Of a stretch of 64,000 bases of DNA, positions 28,481-35,258 are shown one piece after another (the first letter of the stretch is position 1; every line of letters begins with the position of its first letter). The DNA comes from a virus. The position numbers were made by a program, and so were the translations under genes. Location of the stretch: the IMG/VR virus record IMGVR_UViG_3300009505_000013, positions 22,667 through 86,666 of that record. One strand, written 5' to 3'. Under the pieces are notes generated by a model. The model was not told the origin of the DNA, did not search any database, and worked only from the letters and a program-made list of their open reading frames with translations.

Positions 28481-28894
28481 ATGAAAAAGGTTCTGTTGTT
28501 TATTCTAGCATTGTTTATTACCTCAACTATACAGGGTCAACAATGGGTTAGTGATGATAGCTTTGTTAATGAAATAAATGGACACTCAGGTGATCAAGAT
28601 GAAGATATAGTTATTATAGAATTTTGGGCAGAGTTTAATAAAGACAATGCTTTTATAGACTGGAAGAAGATAGATGATCTTGATGGTGTAAAATATTTAA
28701 GAGCTAACATAGCTCAGTGCCCATCATTAAAGAAAGAATTTAGAATTAGAATGGTGCCCACCATATTAATTTTTTCAGGAGGAGACGCATTTATAAAGTT
28801 TAAAGCTAAAGCCGGTCTAGACCTCCTATGCCCTATAGACTATCCTAAGATGGTTAGAGCAATAGAGGTTGTTAGACGAGAAGCTTCTTACTAG
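28481..28894 (+). CDS. secreted thioredoxin-fold protein without CxxC (137 aa)
   Basis: MKKVLLFILALFITSTIQGQ is a signal peptide. The rest follows the thioredoxin pattern: IIEFWAEF at the position of the active-site strand, a central helix, FRIRMVPTILIF with the cis-proline, and a final strand and helix. Where thioredoxins have WCxxC this protein has EFNKDNAF, so the redox pair is absent. A conserved Cys (AQCPSL) remains elsewhere. It is therefore likely to bind rather than reduce, in the periplasm. Phage thioredoxins usually serve ribonucleotide reductase in the cytoplasm; although nrdA is next door, the signal peptide and lost cysteines argue against that. The stop codon overlaps the nrdA stop tail to tail in the sequence CTAG. 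Confidence 0.7.
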   Translation: MKKVLLFILALFITSTIQGQQWVSDDSFVNEINGHSGDQDEDIVIIEFWAEFNKDNAFIDWKKIDDLDGVKYLRANIAQCPSLKKEFRIRMVPTILIFSGGDAFIKFKAKAGLDLLCPIDYPKMVRAIEVVRREASY

Positions 28895-30516
28895 CCTTCA
28901 CAGCTAGAACACTCTAAAATATTTCTTGCAAAATCTTGAGCACTGCTTTTACTAAATTGATAGTATAAAGTTTTTACACCCTCTTCCCAAGCATACATAT
29001 ATAACTTATTTATATCTTTAGCTGATACAGAAGGATCTATCATTAAGTTTAATGACTGAGACTGATCAATATACTTTTGTCTTTGTGCTGCCTGCAATAC
29101 AATCTCTTTTGGAGATATCTCAACAAATGATTTAAATACTTCTTTGGTAGGAAAATCTAAGTGTTGTACACTACCATCTTTCTTTAAGATAGACTTCCAA
29201 GTCTTGTCTGTATTTAGACCGTGCTTCTCAAGCTCCTCTTCCAAAAATGGATTCTTGTAGATAGTCTTAGACTTAGCAAGATCTTTAATAAAGTAGTTAG
29301 ACTTGATAGGCTCTATACCCATAGACACAGCACCGTGTATAAATGAACTAGACTTAGTAGGAGCAATGGCCATAAGAGTAGTATTAGCATATCCTTCTCT
29401 AAGAGATGTGTATCCATAGTCATTATGTAACTCTCTAGAAGCAATTTCACTTCTGTCTTTTAGTGTTCTAAAGATTTCACTATTTAATCCTTTAGCTTGT
29501 AGTGAGTCAAACTCAAGAAGCTTTGATTGAAACAAAGAATGATAACCTAACACACCAAGGCCAATAGCTCTATGTTTCTCAGCAAAGTTAAATGCTCTCT
29601 TCATACCCGGCATAGTCTCAGACTTAATAATGAATTCATCCATTACTGCATTTAAGAAATACACATACGTCTCAATTGCATCAGTTTCTTTTATCTGATC
29701 CCAGTGTAATAAGTTAATAGACCCAAGACAGCATACAAAAGAGTTATAACTATCTGTAGGAAGCTGAATTTCTGAACATAAGTTTGAAGCTGTGATCTCC
29801 ATTCCAAGCTCTTTGTAAGGAGAGTTATTGTTAGAGTTGTCTTTAAACATAATATAAGGAAAGCCAAACTCACTTCTGTTCTGAATAATTTTTGCCCACA
29901 CCTTACGCTTACCTTTATCTCCTTCTTTCATTTCATTCATCCACTGATCTGTAACTGTAACTCCATACTGTAAGTTTTGTATAGGATTACCTTCTGTCCC
30001 TATGTCTAAGAACTCTGAGATGTCTGGATGTTCAACTGGTAGGTACACTGCACAAGCACCACGTCTTGCTTCAGATTGCTTGCATACATCTACTACTGTA
30101 TCATAAATCTTAGCATAATGAACTGGACCATCAGCAAAACCACCTGTAGATATTTCTGTTCCTCTTGCTCTAATGTTGCCAATAAAAGCACTTGTACCTC
30201 CCCCATATTTACTCATCATTCCAATTTCACGCCCTGCATTTAATATGCTGTCTAAGTTGTCATCAACATTAGATCCGTAACAGCTTATAGGCAAACCTTT
30301 TTGTTTACCAAAATTAATCCATACAGGAGTAGACAGAGAGTAAAACCCTCTTGCCATGTAGTCCTCAAACTTTTCTGCAAAGCCTTTTATATTCAAATAC
30401 TTTTCTGCTTTTATAGCAATGTCTTTGATTCTTTGTTCAGGGCTTTCTGATATATACCCTCTTGATAAAAATGTGCGGCTGTCTTCATTCAGCCAGTAGT
30501 ATTTATTATATTCCAT
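28891..30516 (-). CDS. nrdA: ribonucleoside-diphosphate reductase, large subunit (class I)
   Basis: This reduces ribonucleotides to deoxyribonucleotides with the radical made by the small subunit. Visible landmarks are C79 in GLPISCYG (first redox Cys), N245-L-C247-S-E249 (the N-x-C-x-E catalytic triad), C262/C263 as the second redox Cys, and a C-terminal CSSC tail (C536, C539) that exchanges electrons with thioredoxin or glutaredoxin. At 541 residues it is short because the N-terminal ATP cone is missing, as in many phage enzymes; activity control by dATP is thus unlikely. nrdB lies 12 bases upstream on the same strand, so the two form an operon. A cytoplasmic host reductant must be used because the neighbouring thioredoxin-fold protein lacks CxxC. 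Confidence 0.95.
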   Translation of the reverse strand: MEYNKYYWLNEDSRTFLSRGYISESPEQRIKDIAIKAEKYLNIKGFAEKFEDYMARGFYSLSTPVWINFGKQKGLPISCYGSNVDDNLDSILNAGREIGMMSKYGGGTSAFIGNIRARGTEISTGGFADGPVHYAKIYDTVVDVCKQSEARRGACAVYLPVEHPDISEFLDIGTEGNPIQNLQYGVTVTDQWMNEMKEGDKGKRKVWAKIIQNRSEFGFPYIMFKDNSNNNSPYKELGMEITASNLCSEIQLPTDSYNSFVCCLGSINLLHWDQIKETDAIETYVYFLNAVMDEFIIKSETMPGMKRAFNFAEKHRAIGLGVLGYHSLFQSKLLEFDSLQAKGLNSEIFRTLKDRSEIASRELHNDYGYTSLREGYANTTLMAIAPTKSSSFIHGAVSMGIEPIKSNYFIKDLAKSKTIYKNPFLEEELEKHGLNTDKTWKSILKKDGSVQHLDFPTKEVFKSFVEISPKEIVLQAAQRQKYIDQSQSLNLMIDPSVSAKDINKLYMYAWEEGVKTLYYQFSKSSAQDFARNILECSSCEG

Positions 30517-30528
30517 TGGTTTTTGTTT

Positions 30529-31509
30529 TTAAAATAAATCATCAACTGTGATGCTTTTACTTTTTTTATTGTAGTCTACACTCTTTTTGTAAAAGAAGTC
30601 TCCTTCTTTGGTTCCAGTTATCTCTATGTCAAACCATTCCACTGATTTTAATAATTCATTATCTACTTCAAAGATTGGTTTCATACCTATCTTTTCTAAA
30701 GAGTTATTAAATCTATTTTTTATAAAGTGATAGACAGTTTGCTTAGGTAGGAAATCTAATTCTCCTTGCTCAAAGATCCAATCTAGTATACCACATTCTG
30801 CTCTATACGCTTTTCTACATGCAGAATAGATGAGCTCTTCAAACTCTGCATCAAACCATTCAGGGTTTTCTTTTTTAATAATATTGATAATTTCAGCACC
30901 AAAGTTTCCGTGTATCTCTTCTTCTTTACTAGTGGCCTCAACAACATTAGATATACCTTTAAGTACATTTTTTTCTTTGTTGAAACTCATCATAATTAGG
31001 AACTGACTGAATAGACTTACGTGCTCTATAAATAAAGAGAACAGTAATACAGACTTAGTATACATTTTATTATCTCTAGAACGTGTACCATCTAAGTACT
31101 TTTTTAAATACTTAAGTCTACCTTCTATTGCCGGTACTTCAACTACTGATTGAAATTCTTTTTCTAATCCTAGTATTCTAAGCAGTCTGGCGTAAGCATC
31201 TTTGTGTCTTACTTCTGACTCAGCAAAAGTAAAACCAACATCACCTATTTCTGTAATAGGCATACGCTTATAAAGATCTCCCCAAAAAGTTTTTACATTA
31301 ACCTCTATTTGAGCAATAGCAAGCATTGTCTTTTTAATAACATCTTTTTCTTTATTAGATATAGTGACCTTAAAGTCTTGAATGTCTTCTGTAAAATTAA
31401 ACTCAGTGTCTATCCAGTAAGAATGTCTTATAGCATCCTTGTATGCTAATAGTTGAGGGTACTCATAAGGTAATATATTTGTTCTAGGTTTAAAGATGTC
31501 TTTGTTCAT
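30529..31509 (-). CDS. nrdB: ribonucleoside-diphosphate reductase, small subunit
   Basis: The 326-residue protein holds the di-metal site and radical. Ligands read as E69 (in AIAQIEVN), E99 and H102 (EVRH), E162 and E197/H200 (EEEIH). Tyr106 lies four residues after H102, the spacing of the radical tyrosine in Escherichia coli NrdB. The first ligand appears to be Glu rather than the Asp of E. coli, though this rests on a hand alignment. The C-terminus (SITVDDLF) ends in the acidic/Phe tail that binds NrdA. It is the first gene of the nrdB-nrdA pair, preceded at 31530-31559 by a terminator that belongs to the gene further upstream. Confidence 0.94.
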   Translation of the reverse strand: MNKDIFKPRTNILPYEYPQLLAYKDAIRHSYWIDTEFNFTEDIQDFKVTISNKEKDVIKKTMLAIAQIEVNVKTFWGDLYKRMPITEIGDVGFTFAESEVRHKDAYARLLRILGLEKEFQSVVEVPAIEGRLKYLKKYLDGTRSRDNKMYTKSVLLFSLFIEHVSLFSQFLIMMSFNKEKNVLKGISNVVEATSKEEEIHGNFGAEIINIIKKENPEWFDAEFEELIYSACRKAYRAECGILDWIFEQGELDFLPKQTVYHFIKNRFNNSLEKIGMKPIFEVDNELLKSVEWFDIEITGTKEGDFFYKKSVDYNKKSKSITVDDLF

Positions 31510-33848: not shown

Positions 33849-34316
33849 ATGAGTGATAAAAAACCTAAAAAGAAATTTAAAAATACCAAGGTAGGACAGT
33901 TCCTTACAGAGAAGGTTCCTAGTATACTTGGTATTGCAGGAGAGTTACTTCCAGATGCAGGTGTTTTAGGCATGGTTAAATCTTTAATAGAAAAGGAACC
34001 AGCTTTATCACCGGTAGATAAAGAGCATGCATTGAAACTACTTGAACAAGATATGGTTGAAATGCAAGAGGTAAGCAAGCGTTGGGAAGCAGATATGACT
34101 TCTGATTCTTGGCTTAGTAAAAATACAAGACCTATGACTTTGATATTTTTAACTATATCAATGGTAATATTTATGTTATTGGACAGCTCTGATATTGACT
34201 TTAAAGTAGATTCAATCTGGGTTGATTTGTTAAAATCATTACTAATAACAGTTTATGTAGCATACTTTGGTTCAAGGGGTGCTGAGAAATTTAAGTCAAT
34301 AAGCAATAAAAATTAA
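33849..34316 (+). CDS. holin-like membrane protein (155 aa)
   Basis: The N-terminal half is charged and soluble (KKKFKNTKVGQFLTEK, then a helix-rich segment). Residues about 90-150 carry SKNTRPMTLIFLTISMVIFM and a second hydrophobic helix near LLKSLLITVYVAYFG, ending in a basic tail. The TRPM-hydrophobic pattern matches the three-helix holin family known from gene transfer agents and phages. It would assemble in the inner membrane and time lysis. No endolysin is visible nearby, so the assignment rests on topology and motif. Confidence 0.65.
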   Translation: MSDKKPKKKFKNTKVGQFLTEKVPSILGIAGELLPDAGVLGMVKSLIEKEPALSPVDKEHALKLLEQDMVEMQEVSKRWEADMTSDSWLSKNTRPMTLIFLTISMVIFMLLDSSDIDFKVDSIWVDLLKSLLITVYVAYFGSRGAEKFKSISNKN

Positions 34317-34334: not shown

Positions 34335-34583
34335 ATGCCAAATAATATGAAAAATGCTGGAATGTCTTACAAGGTAGGAGGAGCCAGAAAAAAGAAAGAC
34401 TCTTATGGAGATGGTGGTATGGATTATTCATACCAAAATATGTTTGCTAAAATGGGTGGTGCTATGGGTACTAAGGATGTAATGGATGTTATCCAAGGAT
34501 CAAGTGCTATGCAAATGAAAAGAGGTGGTGGTACCAAAAAAGGTATGGTTAGAAAAACTGCACGTAGAGCATATAAAAAATAA
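34335..34583 (+). CDS. small Gly/Lys/Met-rich protein (82 aa)
   Basis: MPNNMKNAGMSYKVGGARKK, then DGGMDYSYQNMFAKMGGAMG and a basic C-terminus (KKGMVRKTARRAYKK). There is no hydrophobic core, membrane segment or known motif. The Gly-Gly/Met style resembles the gene at 32355-32591. Likely disordered and nucleic-acid- or virion-binding, but this is inference. Confidence 0.65.
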   Translation: MPNNMKNAGMSYKVGGARKKKDSYGDGGMDYSYQNMFAKMGGAMGTKDVMDVIQGSSAMQMKRGGGTKKGMVRKTARRAYKK

Positions 34584-34586
34584 GAT

Positions 34587-34673
34587 ATGAGTAATAGTAA
34601 ACAACAATGTCAATGTGGTAACACTCAAAATCCTGATGGGCTTTGTGATGGATCTCACTTGATTAAAAAATAA
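34587..34673 (+). CDS. 28-residue CDGSH-type iron-sulfur mini-protein
   Basis: Start ATG 34587, stop TAA 34671-34673, three bases after the previous stop and six before the next ATG. The peptide contains CQCGNTQNPDGLCDGSH. This matches the CDGSH motif (C-x-C, Ser/Thr, Pro, then C-D-G-S-H) whose three Cys and one His hold a 2Fe-2S cluster in mitoNEET-like proteins. Ten positions separate the second and third Cys, against nine in mitoNEET. The whole gene is little more than the motif with a seven-residue leader and a four-residue tail. Known CDGSH proteins dimerise, so this one would have to do so or pair with a partner. Cluster binding is inferred. Confidence 0.75.
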   Translation: MSNSKQQCQCGNTQNPDGLCDGSHLIKK

Positions 34674-34679
34674 ACAATT

Positions 34680-34907
34680 ATGGCAAAGAAAATATCATTC
34701 CCAATGGGAGACGGAAAGGTAGAGAATGGGTATTATGACCCAACTTCTATACCATCAAAAATTCAAGCAAAAAAGAATGCAACTGCTACAGCAACTAGAA
34801 TGAGACTAGCTGCACAAGGAGTTGAGATTAAACGTATGTCTACTAGAGCATCTGAACCAGTTCAATCAGAAGCTTTTAAAAATGGATATAGAAACGGTAA
34901 AAAATAA
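34680..34907 (+). CDS. small hypothetical protein (75 aa)
   Basis: MAKKISFPMGDGKVENGYYD followed by a basic, alanine/threonine-rich helix and ending NGYRNGKK. No known motif or membrane segment. It sits among small late genes between fibres 1 and 2, all on the same strand with short gaps. Function unknown. Confidence 0.6.
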   Translation: MAKKISFPMGDGKVENGYYDPTSIPSKIQAKKNATATATRMRLAAQGVEIKRMSTRASEPVQSEAFKNGYRNGKK

Positions 34908-34913
34908 ATTACT

Positions 34914-35258
34914 ATGGCAACATTAACAGCACAACAAATAAGTCAAGCAGGTATAGTACCTGTAACAGTAACTCCTGAATCAACAGGTGATAAACTTGCA
35001 AATACTGGAAAGCAGTTTTTTCATATTGAAAATGCTAGTGGTTCATCAGTAACAGCTACAGTTGTTCCTGTAGTTACTACTGTTGTAGATCCTTTGTTAG
35101 GAGTACTTGCAAAAGAAAATGCTGTTTTAACATTATCTGCGGGTGAAGAAGGATTTTTAGGACCTTTTGAAGTTGATGCTTTTAATGATGTTGATGGTAA
35201 TATAACAATAACATGTTCAGCAACAGCTAGTATTAAACTATCTGCTCTGTACTTATAA
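34914..35258 (+). CDS. small beta-sandwich-like virion protein (114 aa)
   Basis: Almost wholly beta-type sequence: GIVPVTVTPESTGDKLANTG, FFHIENASGSSVTATV, LTLSAGEEGFLGPFEVDAFN, NITITCSATASIKLSALYL. The layout resembles small head-decoration or fibre-cap proteins encoded beside fibres. No signal peptide. It ends ten bases before fibre 2. Virion location is inferred. Confidence 0.6.
   Translation: MATLTAQQISQAGIVPVTVTPESTGDKLANTGKQFFHIENASGSSVTATVVPVVTTVVDPLLGVLAKENAVLTLSAGEEGFLGPFEVDAFNDVDGNITITCSATASIKLSALYL

Follow-up and report, generated by a model that had tools for sequence, protein, structure and literature searches.

A predicted 28-residue CDGSH-like microprotein of a phage and its relatives in marine viruses and Bacteroidota

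Judged from its sequence and those of its relatives, a 28-codon ORF in a viral genome (positions 34587-34673, plus strand) is a real protein-coding gene under purifying selection. It encodes a member of a predicted protein family, here called micro-CDGSH (23-45 aa, C-x-C-x9-C-D-G-[ST]-H), that is common to phages and marine Bacteroidota. This family appears to be large and unannotated, both in marine viruses and in the flavobacteria that are likely to be their hosts. As the best overall explanation we tentatively propose a host-derived microprotein that would bind a metal or a [2Fe-2S] cluster and work with a redox partner of the envelope. The neighbouring genes suggest a function at the envelope more than one in the virus particle. 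The DNA analysed (the window, 64,000 nucleotides) is a portion of an 86,666-base IMG/VR virus record, and the features of the locus, all on the plus strand, are as follows.

33849-34316 (+): 3TM-type holin, 155 aa, two genes upstream of micro-CDGSH; phrog_3427 holin, E 5.5e-19.
34335-34583 (+): 82-aa basic Gly-rich protein, directly upstream; from the ORF list, no family match.
34587-34673 (+): micro-CDGSH gene, 28 aa, ATG start, TAA stop; supported by translation, same-slot homologues and pN/pS.
34608-34658 (+): 17-residue ligand core CQCGNTQNPDGLCDGSH; pattern match.
34608-34610, 34614-34616, 34644-34646 and 34656-34658 (+): codons of the candidate ligands C8, C10, C20 and H24; counted from the translation.
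34680-34907 (+): 75-aa basic protein, directly downstream; from the ORF list, no family match.
34914-35258 (+): 114-aa tail protein, used as a motif-free anchor; matches phrog_16194 (tail protein) at E 1.2e-9 and has 55 relatives in viral contigs.

The ORF translates as MSNSKQQCQCGNTQNPDGLCDGSHLIKK, in which seven residues precede the first Cys and four follow the His. It starts 3 nt past the preceding stop and ends 6 nt short of the next start. The 75-aa protein downstream belongs to a family (fam19) of 9 loci and occupies position +1 in every one. The locus is a same-strand run that begins with the holin and continues with the tail protein and long fibre-like ORFs. An earlier note on this DNA had placed the gene in a tail-fibre block, which describes its downstream side well but overlooks the holin two genes upstream. 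This holin shares 46.8% identity, over 78% of the query, with the annotated holin of Nonlabens phage P12024L, its nearest cultured relative, whose fibre-endolysin-holin cassette has no micro-CDGSH ORF in the stretch listed. Elsewhere in the window, a 137-aa protein (28481-28894) has a signal-peptide-like start, appears thioredoxin-like by eye and has no PHROGs match. Two ORFs of 541 and 326 aa (28891-31509, minus strand) look by eye like ribonucleotide reductase subunits; they interrupt the plus-strand structural region.

A degenerate CDGSH motif pattern occurs once in the 64-kb window, and it was found in 0 of 100 dinucleotide-preserving shuffles of the window, with up to 3 mismatches allowed. 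Relatives of the locus were retrieved through neighbouring genes and not through the motif, which would otherwise have selected for its own presence. With the 114-aa tail gene as anchor, 54 of the 55 relatives had upstream DNA (L297 had none and was left out), and a micro-CDGSH ORF was present in the same slot in 20 of the 54. These ORFs are 26-28 aa long and represent 10 distinct peptides, all of which keep the four ligands and an intact CDGSH. Loss of the ligands at homologous positions of related phages had been named in the earlier note as a refutation of its proposal; their retention means that the observation withstood this check. The window's own peptide accounts for 3 of the 20 positive loci, possibly a single virus. 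In the other 34 loci micro-CDGSH is absent and the flanking genes almost touch. With the holin as a motif-free anchor, the gene was present in 14 of 80 relatives and absent from 66. A third motif-free anchor, a 136-aa membrane/coiled-coil protein that adjoins many phage copies, gave 80 loci, one too short to test, with micro-CDGSH in 48 of the 79 testable loci and absent from 31; CDSSH replaces CDGSH in two of the 48, and in 27 loci of this set the start codon overlaps the upstream stop as ATGA. Micro-CDGSH is an accessory gene, carried by a fraction of each phage group and dispensable for some members.

Selection was analyzed in the 17-codon core. In the window's group (12 sequences, with a chance regex ORF, L287, left out), pN/pS, calculated as raw proportions over all pairs and not tree-based, was 0.28, against 1.04 and 0.98 in the other two frames; this set required CDG.H, by which ligand conservation is built in, and the frame control is the part that bears weight. 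By the same raw measure, a second set (22 sequences) gave 0.23, with 1.52 and 1.65 in the other two frames, and host sequences (n=89) gave 0.16. Third codon positions are variable in 15 of the 17 codons in the window's group, first positions in 6 and second positions in 5. A chance ORF carrying a chance motif might be suspected from the mere 28 codons and from family libraries that hold no match above cut-off; however, we rejected it, as its probability appears negligible in view of the shuffles, the conservation in the same slot and the purifying selection specific to one frame. What the earlier note had called a near-minimal CDGSH peptide is accordingly a real gene, selected as a protein, with almost nothing beyond the ligand motif.

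CDGSH domains have been described by a 17-residue consensus, Phi-C-X-C-X-X-(S/T)-X-X-X-P-Phi-C-D-G-(S/T/A)-H, and sorted into types 1-7, and their binding module is stated to require a beta-sandwich that includes an N-strand and a P motif, for dimerisation (Lin et al. 2011, PMC3174974). The window peptide has the 3-Cys/1-His ligand set C-x-C ... C-D-G-[STA]-H, but it fails the full consensus by an extra loop residue, by the position of the Pro and by a Gln before the first Cys. In some relatives the loop proline is replaced (S-A-D, N-S-E, N-S-D). The profile search suggested in the earlier note did reveal similarity to the CDGSH family PF09360 (14.1 bits, E 0.059), but a weak one, below the gathering cut-off of 29.5 bits; three typical relatives tested had no CDGSH match in Pfam at E up to 1. 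NCBIfam and PHROGs gave no match to the window peptide, so that family libraries miss the gene. Its best match among solved structures was PDB 3tbn (E 0.098). An AlphaFold model of a 30-aa host form had a pLDDT of 71.4 and a pTM of 0.29 and contained no strand or helix, and that of a tandem micro form had a pLDDT of 51.5; neither model gives a fold confident enough to be compared with known structures. Strict membership among ordinary CDGSH proteins was rejected on the consensus mismatch and the Pfam score below cut-off.

A connection to CDGSH proteins is provided by L133, a single protein from one low-coverage MAG contig. In this 80-aa gammaproteobacterial tandem CDGSH protein, a long-loop motif is followed by a canonical one; the protein scored 61.2 bits with PF09360, and its best match among solved structures was PDB 3tbn (E 4.3e-11), in an alignment that spans both motifs. 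At the level of sequence, L133 ties micro-CDGSH to CDGSH proteins, as a long-loop motif stands there in the place of a canonical one. Considering the longer loop and the missing scaffold, yet also this link, we view micro-CDGSH as a variant related to CDGSH domains and outside types 1-7. Sengupta et al. 2018 (PMC5859297) make no mention of virus, phage or Bacteroidetes, and excerpts of two other papers mention a CDGSH gene, located on a mobile element or counted among strain-specific genes (PMC6814731, PMC9394441). Excerpts of the literature on CDGSH proteins, a literature that here lay largely outside subscription journals, contained no description of phage micro-CDGSH.

Viral contigs were scanned with the degenerate pattern C-x-C-G-x3-[ND]-P-x-G-x-C-D-G-x-H, which yielded at least 120 motif loci. 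Among the 120 viral matches listed, the ORF has 20-29 aa in 70, fewer than 60 aa in 89, and is longer in 31. Ninety loci among the matches listed, the window included, are stand-alone, and in 65 of them a holin or M15 endolysin lies within five genes (a holin-family gene in 53, an M15-family gene in 44, both in 32), these families being BLAST clusters whose names come from one or two members each (phrog_3427 holin in the window and L037; phrog_894 endolysin and Peptidase_M15_3 in L027). Neither was found nearby in the other 25. Of 176 genes adjacent to phage micro-CDGSH among the matches listed, 171 share its strand. The commonest order is a tail gene, 46-aa and 136-aa membrane proteins, micro-CDGSH, a 51-/59-aa membrane protein, an M15 peptidase and a holin, and the gene occurs on either side of the 59-aa membrane gene, in two different slots of the cassette. 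That it is peculiar to a tail-fibre block, the setting in which it was first noticed, is not supported: most relatives have small membrane proteins next to them and lie within a holin/endolysin cassette.

Three of 80 relatives of the 136-aa protein (L456, L459, L460) have a Cys-rich C-terminal tail; L456 carries both this tail and, further downstream, a micro-CDGSH ORF. The idea that this tail substitutes for the microprotein was dropped, as it was seen in these three only, one of them with the micro gene too. Searches of a phage collection by tblastn, in which short queries are weak, gave no match for the window peptide (E 10), a related 26-aa peptide (E 10) or a 109-aa fusion (E 1). CDGSH motifs of canonical spacing occur in viral contigs as well, at no fewer than 120 loci (L465-L584); 33 ORFs among the matches listed are shorter than 45 aa, such as a 24-aa ORF in L475, and two other loci, L548 and L523, encode a protein of ~280 aa with the motif added at its N-terminus. 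Six proteins, four of them short ORFs of this canonical-spacing set or similar, had no family in PHROGs.

The same degenerate pattern was found at 120 or more loci in genome contigs. Of 80 titled bacterial matches, 73 were from Bacteroidota (mainly marine Flavobacteriales), 6 from Opitutae/Verrucomicrobia and 1 from a gammaproteobacterial MAG. Intact single-motif genes of 26-40 aa were present in 94 of the 120 bacterial matches listed, and in 58 of the 87 intact loci with upstream DNA among these matches the gene immediately before micro-CDGSH, in the same orientation, codes for a YceI lipocalin (the 94 and the 87 leave out L126, L172, L207 and L216, whose host ORFs are imperfect). The gap between YceI and micro-CDGSH has a median of 4 nt and is below 25 nt in 49 loci. 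In five further bacterial loci among the matches listed the motif is fused to YceI; in one of them, L218, the order is motif, hydrophobic stretch and YceI, which would place the motif on the cytoplasmic face of the membrane. Pfam searches with one representative each confirmed YceI, MarR, HxlR, FMN reductase and Pirin as host neighbours, and the recurrent host neighbourhood contains no phage genes. In columns that the search pattern left free, the Ser/Thr position of CDGSH proteins is Thr in 87 and Ser in 2 of 89 host cores, and Tyr or Phe precedes the third Cys in 80 of the 89. YceI lipocalins bind ubiquinone-8 or octaprenyl molecules, and one of them, BcnA, is part of a system that shields the envelope from lipid peroxyl radicals, according to excerpts of PMC9113575; the word iron-sulfur does not occur in that text.

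In a family sample centred on Polaribacter irgensii, the gene was detected in 12 of 299 genomes, none of them above 2.8 Mb. One of the 12 is the centre genome, picked for carrying the gene, and this genome is also the single positive among the 395 of a phylum sample. A reversed control pattern gave 0 matches in the 299 and in the 395 genomes. These counts suggest that micro-CDGSH is rare in cells at large. Of 48 distinct phage cores (among the matches listed), three match a host core exactly and 23 have at least 15 of 17 residues in common with one, although 17 core residues are too few to carry a tree.

The motif was also found attached to other proteins. Three XkdF-type phage head proteases end in it (L019, L118, L062; the Pfam match is shown for L019), and in 18 of the 120 viral matches listed (L010, L012, L013 and 15 more) it forms the N-terminus of a phage protein of 108-110 aa, one of which was tested and had no Pfam or PHROGs match. 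These fusions mostly lie beside a 95-aa protein that is GroES-like by eye only. A 114-aa fusion (L084) has a weak match to phrog_8608, a prohead protease inhibitor. In Flavobacteriales, PSP1-domain proteins of 383-393 aa carry the motif (L135, L169, L192, L200, L237), at the C-terminus in L192, for which PSP1 was identified by Pfam. Two long-loop motifs occur in tandem in ten ORFs (L156, L167, L170, L179, L188, L195, L211, L225, L229, L230); seven of the ten are 52-60 aa long, and the titled ones are from Opitutae/Verrucomicrobia.

It is conceivable, in view of this attachment to either end of unrelated proteins (YceI in L218, PSP1 in L192, XkdF in L019 and the 108-110-aa phage proteins) and of the tandem forms, that micro-CDGSH is a zinc-binding microprotein or an appendable tag, with a use comparable to that of SEC-C, which stabilises or targets its partners and has no iron-sulfur cluster. 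Three Cys and one His would suit zinc too, and the non-canonical loop and absent scaffold weaken what can be concluded from [2Fe-2S] CDGSH proteins. However, the C-D-G-S-H element with its S/T is a CDGSH signature, the long-loop spacing is shared by one of the two motifs of L133, in other respects an ordinary tandem CDGSH protein, and SEC-C is spaced differently; the Pfam search of the window peptide gave no SEC-C match. We consider this explanation rather unlikely.

The earlier note had also suggested that the peptide might put an iron-sulfur cluster on a virion part. In the window's group the gene does sit between the holin/basic-gene pair and the tail genes, and the three XkdF-type head protease fusions, together with the weak prohead protease inhibitor match of L084, keep a link to the virion possible in general; iron-sulfur clusters of phage tail tips are also mentioned in excerpts of the literature. 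Yet the close homologues are marine Bacteroidota chromosomal genes that adjoin YceI or are fused to it, in a recurrent neighbourhood free of phage genes, and most phage copies adjoin lysis and membrane genes. That the peptide serves as a virion component, supplying a tail or head part with a metal cluster, thus seems improbable.

In the explanation that we favour, a host-derived microprotein with an envelope redox partner, the loop would hold a metal in the manner of CDGSH proteins, a [2Fe-2S] cluster being the most probable, and the site would be completed by a scaffold supplied through self-association or by a partner protein; this part we regard as likely. In the bacterium, the partner might be an envelope redox module around YceI, a member of a quinone-binding lipocalin family, with the motif on the cytoplasmic membrane face, a proposal drawn by analogy that we hold to be evenly balanced. 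Somewhat less securely, phages may have acquired the gene from their hosts and may express it late from the tail/lysis operon, and the peptide might then act on the host envelope, influencing its redox, quinone or peroxide state, or the holin-bearing membrane, during virion assembly and lysis timing. A search of the window's virus revealed no YceI gene, so the partner in the phage would be the host's or another protein. It should be noted that the holin, tail and membrane-protein genes may be neighbours only, since short accessory genes gather in such operons. A role as a redox or iron sensor, raised in the earlier note, is possible. A bolder version, in which a free-standing [2Fe-2S] protein of 23-30 residues is the redox partner of YceI at the marine Bacteroidota envelope and its copy in the phage lysis cassette is a membrane-redox sensor or modulator that tunes lysis time, seems quite unlikely to us; if true, this form would be among the smallest natural iron-sulfur proteins.

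Alternatively, the phages might carry micro-CDGSH as a general auxiliary gene, for a small iron-sulfur or redox protein that supports host metabolism and is unconnected with lysis and the envelope, its late position being incidental. Such a gene would agree with the patchy presence, with sequences close to host ones, and with the two different cassette slots and the 25 of 90 loci (among the matches listed) that have no holin or M15 lysin nearby; excerpts of the literature on marine phage auxiliary genes also mention iron-sulfur clusters. It agrees less well with repeated placement in one cassette and with the translational overlap with a membrane-protein gene in many loci, and we consider it possible but doubtful.

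Should the peptide bind a cluster, it would show how small a CDGSH-type site can be. The gene family has been overlooked in viruses and bacteria alike by short-ORF cut-offs and family libraries. Its conserved pairing with YceI offers a candidate partner of that lipocalin family in marine Bacteroidota that lends itself to direct test, and the presence of the same peptide beside phage holin and endolysin genes raises the possibility, open to experiment, that lysis is linked to the redox state of the envelope.

Compared with CISD/NEET proteins (PF09360), the micro form has the same ligand set, a Ser/Thr before the loop and, in most host forms, an aromatic residue preceding the third Cys. It differs in the loop between the second and third Cys (9 residues versus 8 in the canonical form), in a Pro that is displaced or missing and in having no hydrophobic residue before the first Cys (Gln in the window); with 28 aa in total, it has no N-strand, P motif, beta-sandwich or dimer-interface residues. 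The tandem micro genes of Opitutae/Verrucomicrobia resemble type 6 tandem CISD proteins (3tbn, MmCISD) in having two motifs, whereas 3tbn has canonical loops and a folded scaffold and the tandem micro forms are 52-60 aa long with short linkers. SEC-C motifs are spaced C-x-C-x8-C-[CH]. Like micro-CDGSH, SEC-C is a short Cys/His motif appended to unrelated proteins, but the micro-CDGSH spacing is C-x-C-x9-C-x3-H and SEC-C is without the CDGSH element. The tail-tip protein of the Lambda gpL type carries an iron-sulfur cluster. It has in common with micro-CDGSH iron-sulfur chemistry in a phage, putative in our case, and differs in being a large tail-tip protein. In the excerpts of PMC9113575, the BcnA/LcoA/PsrA system of lipid-peroxide detoxification likewise has a YceI lipocalin gene beside a redox protein at the envelope; the function of the Bacteroidota loci would follow from it by analogy only, as the linked partner is cytochrome b561 in that system and a micro-CDGSH gene in the Bacteroidota.
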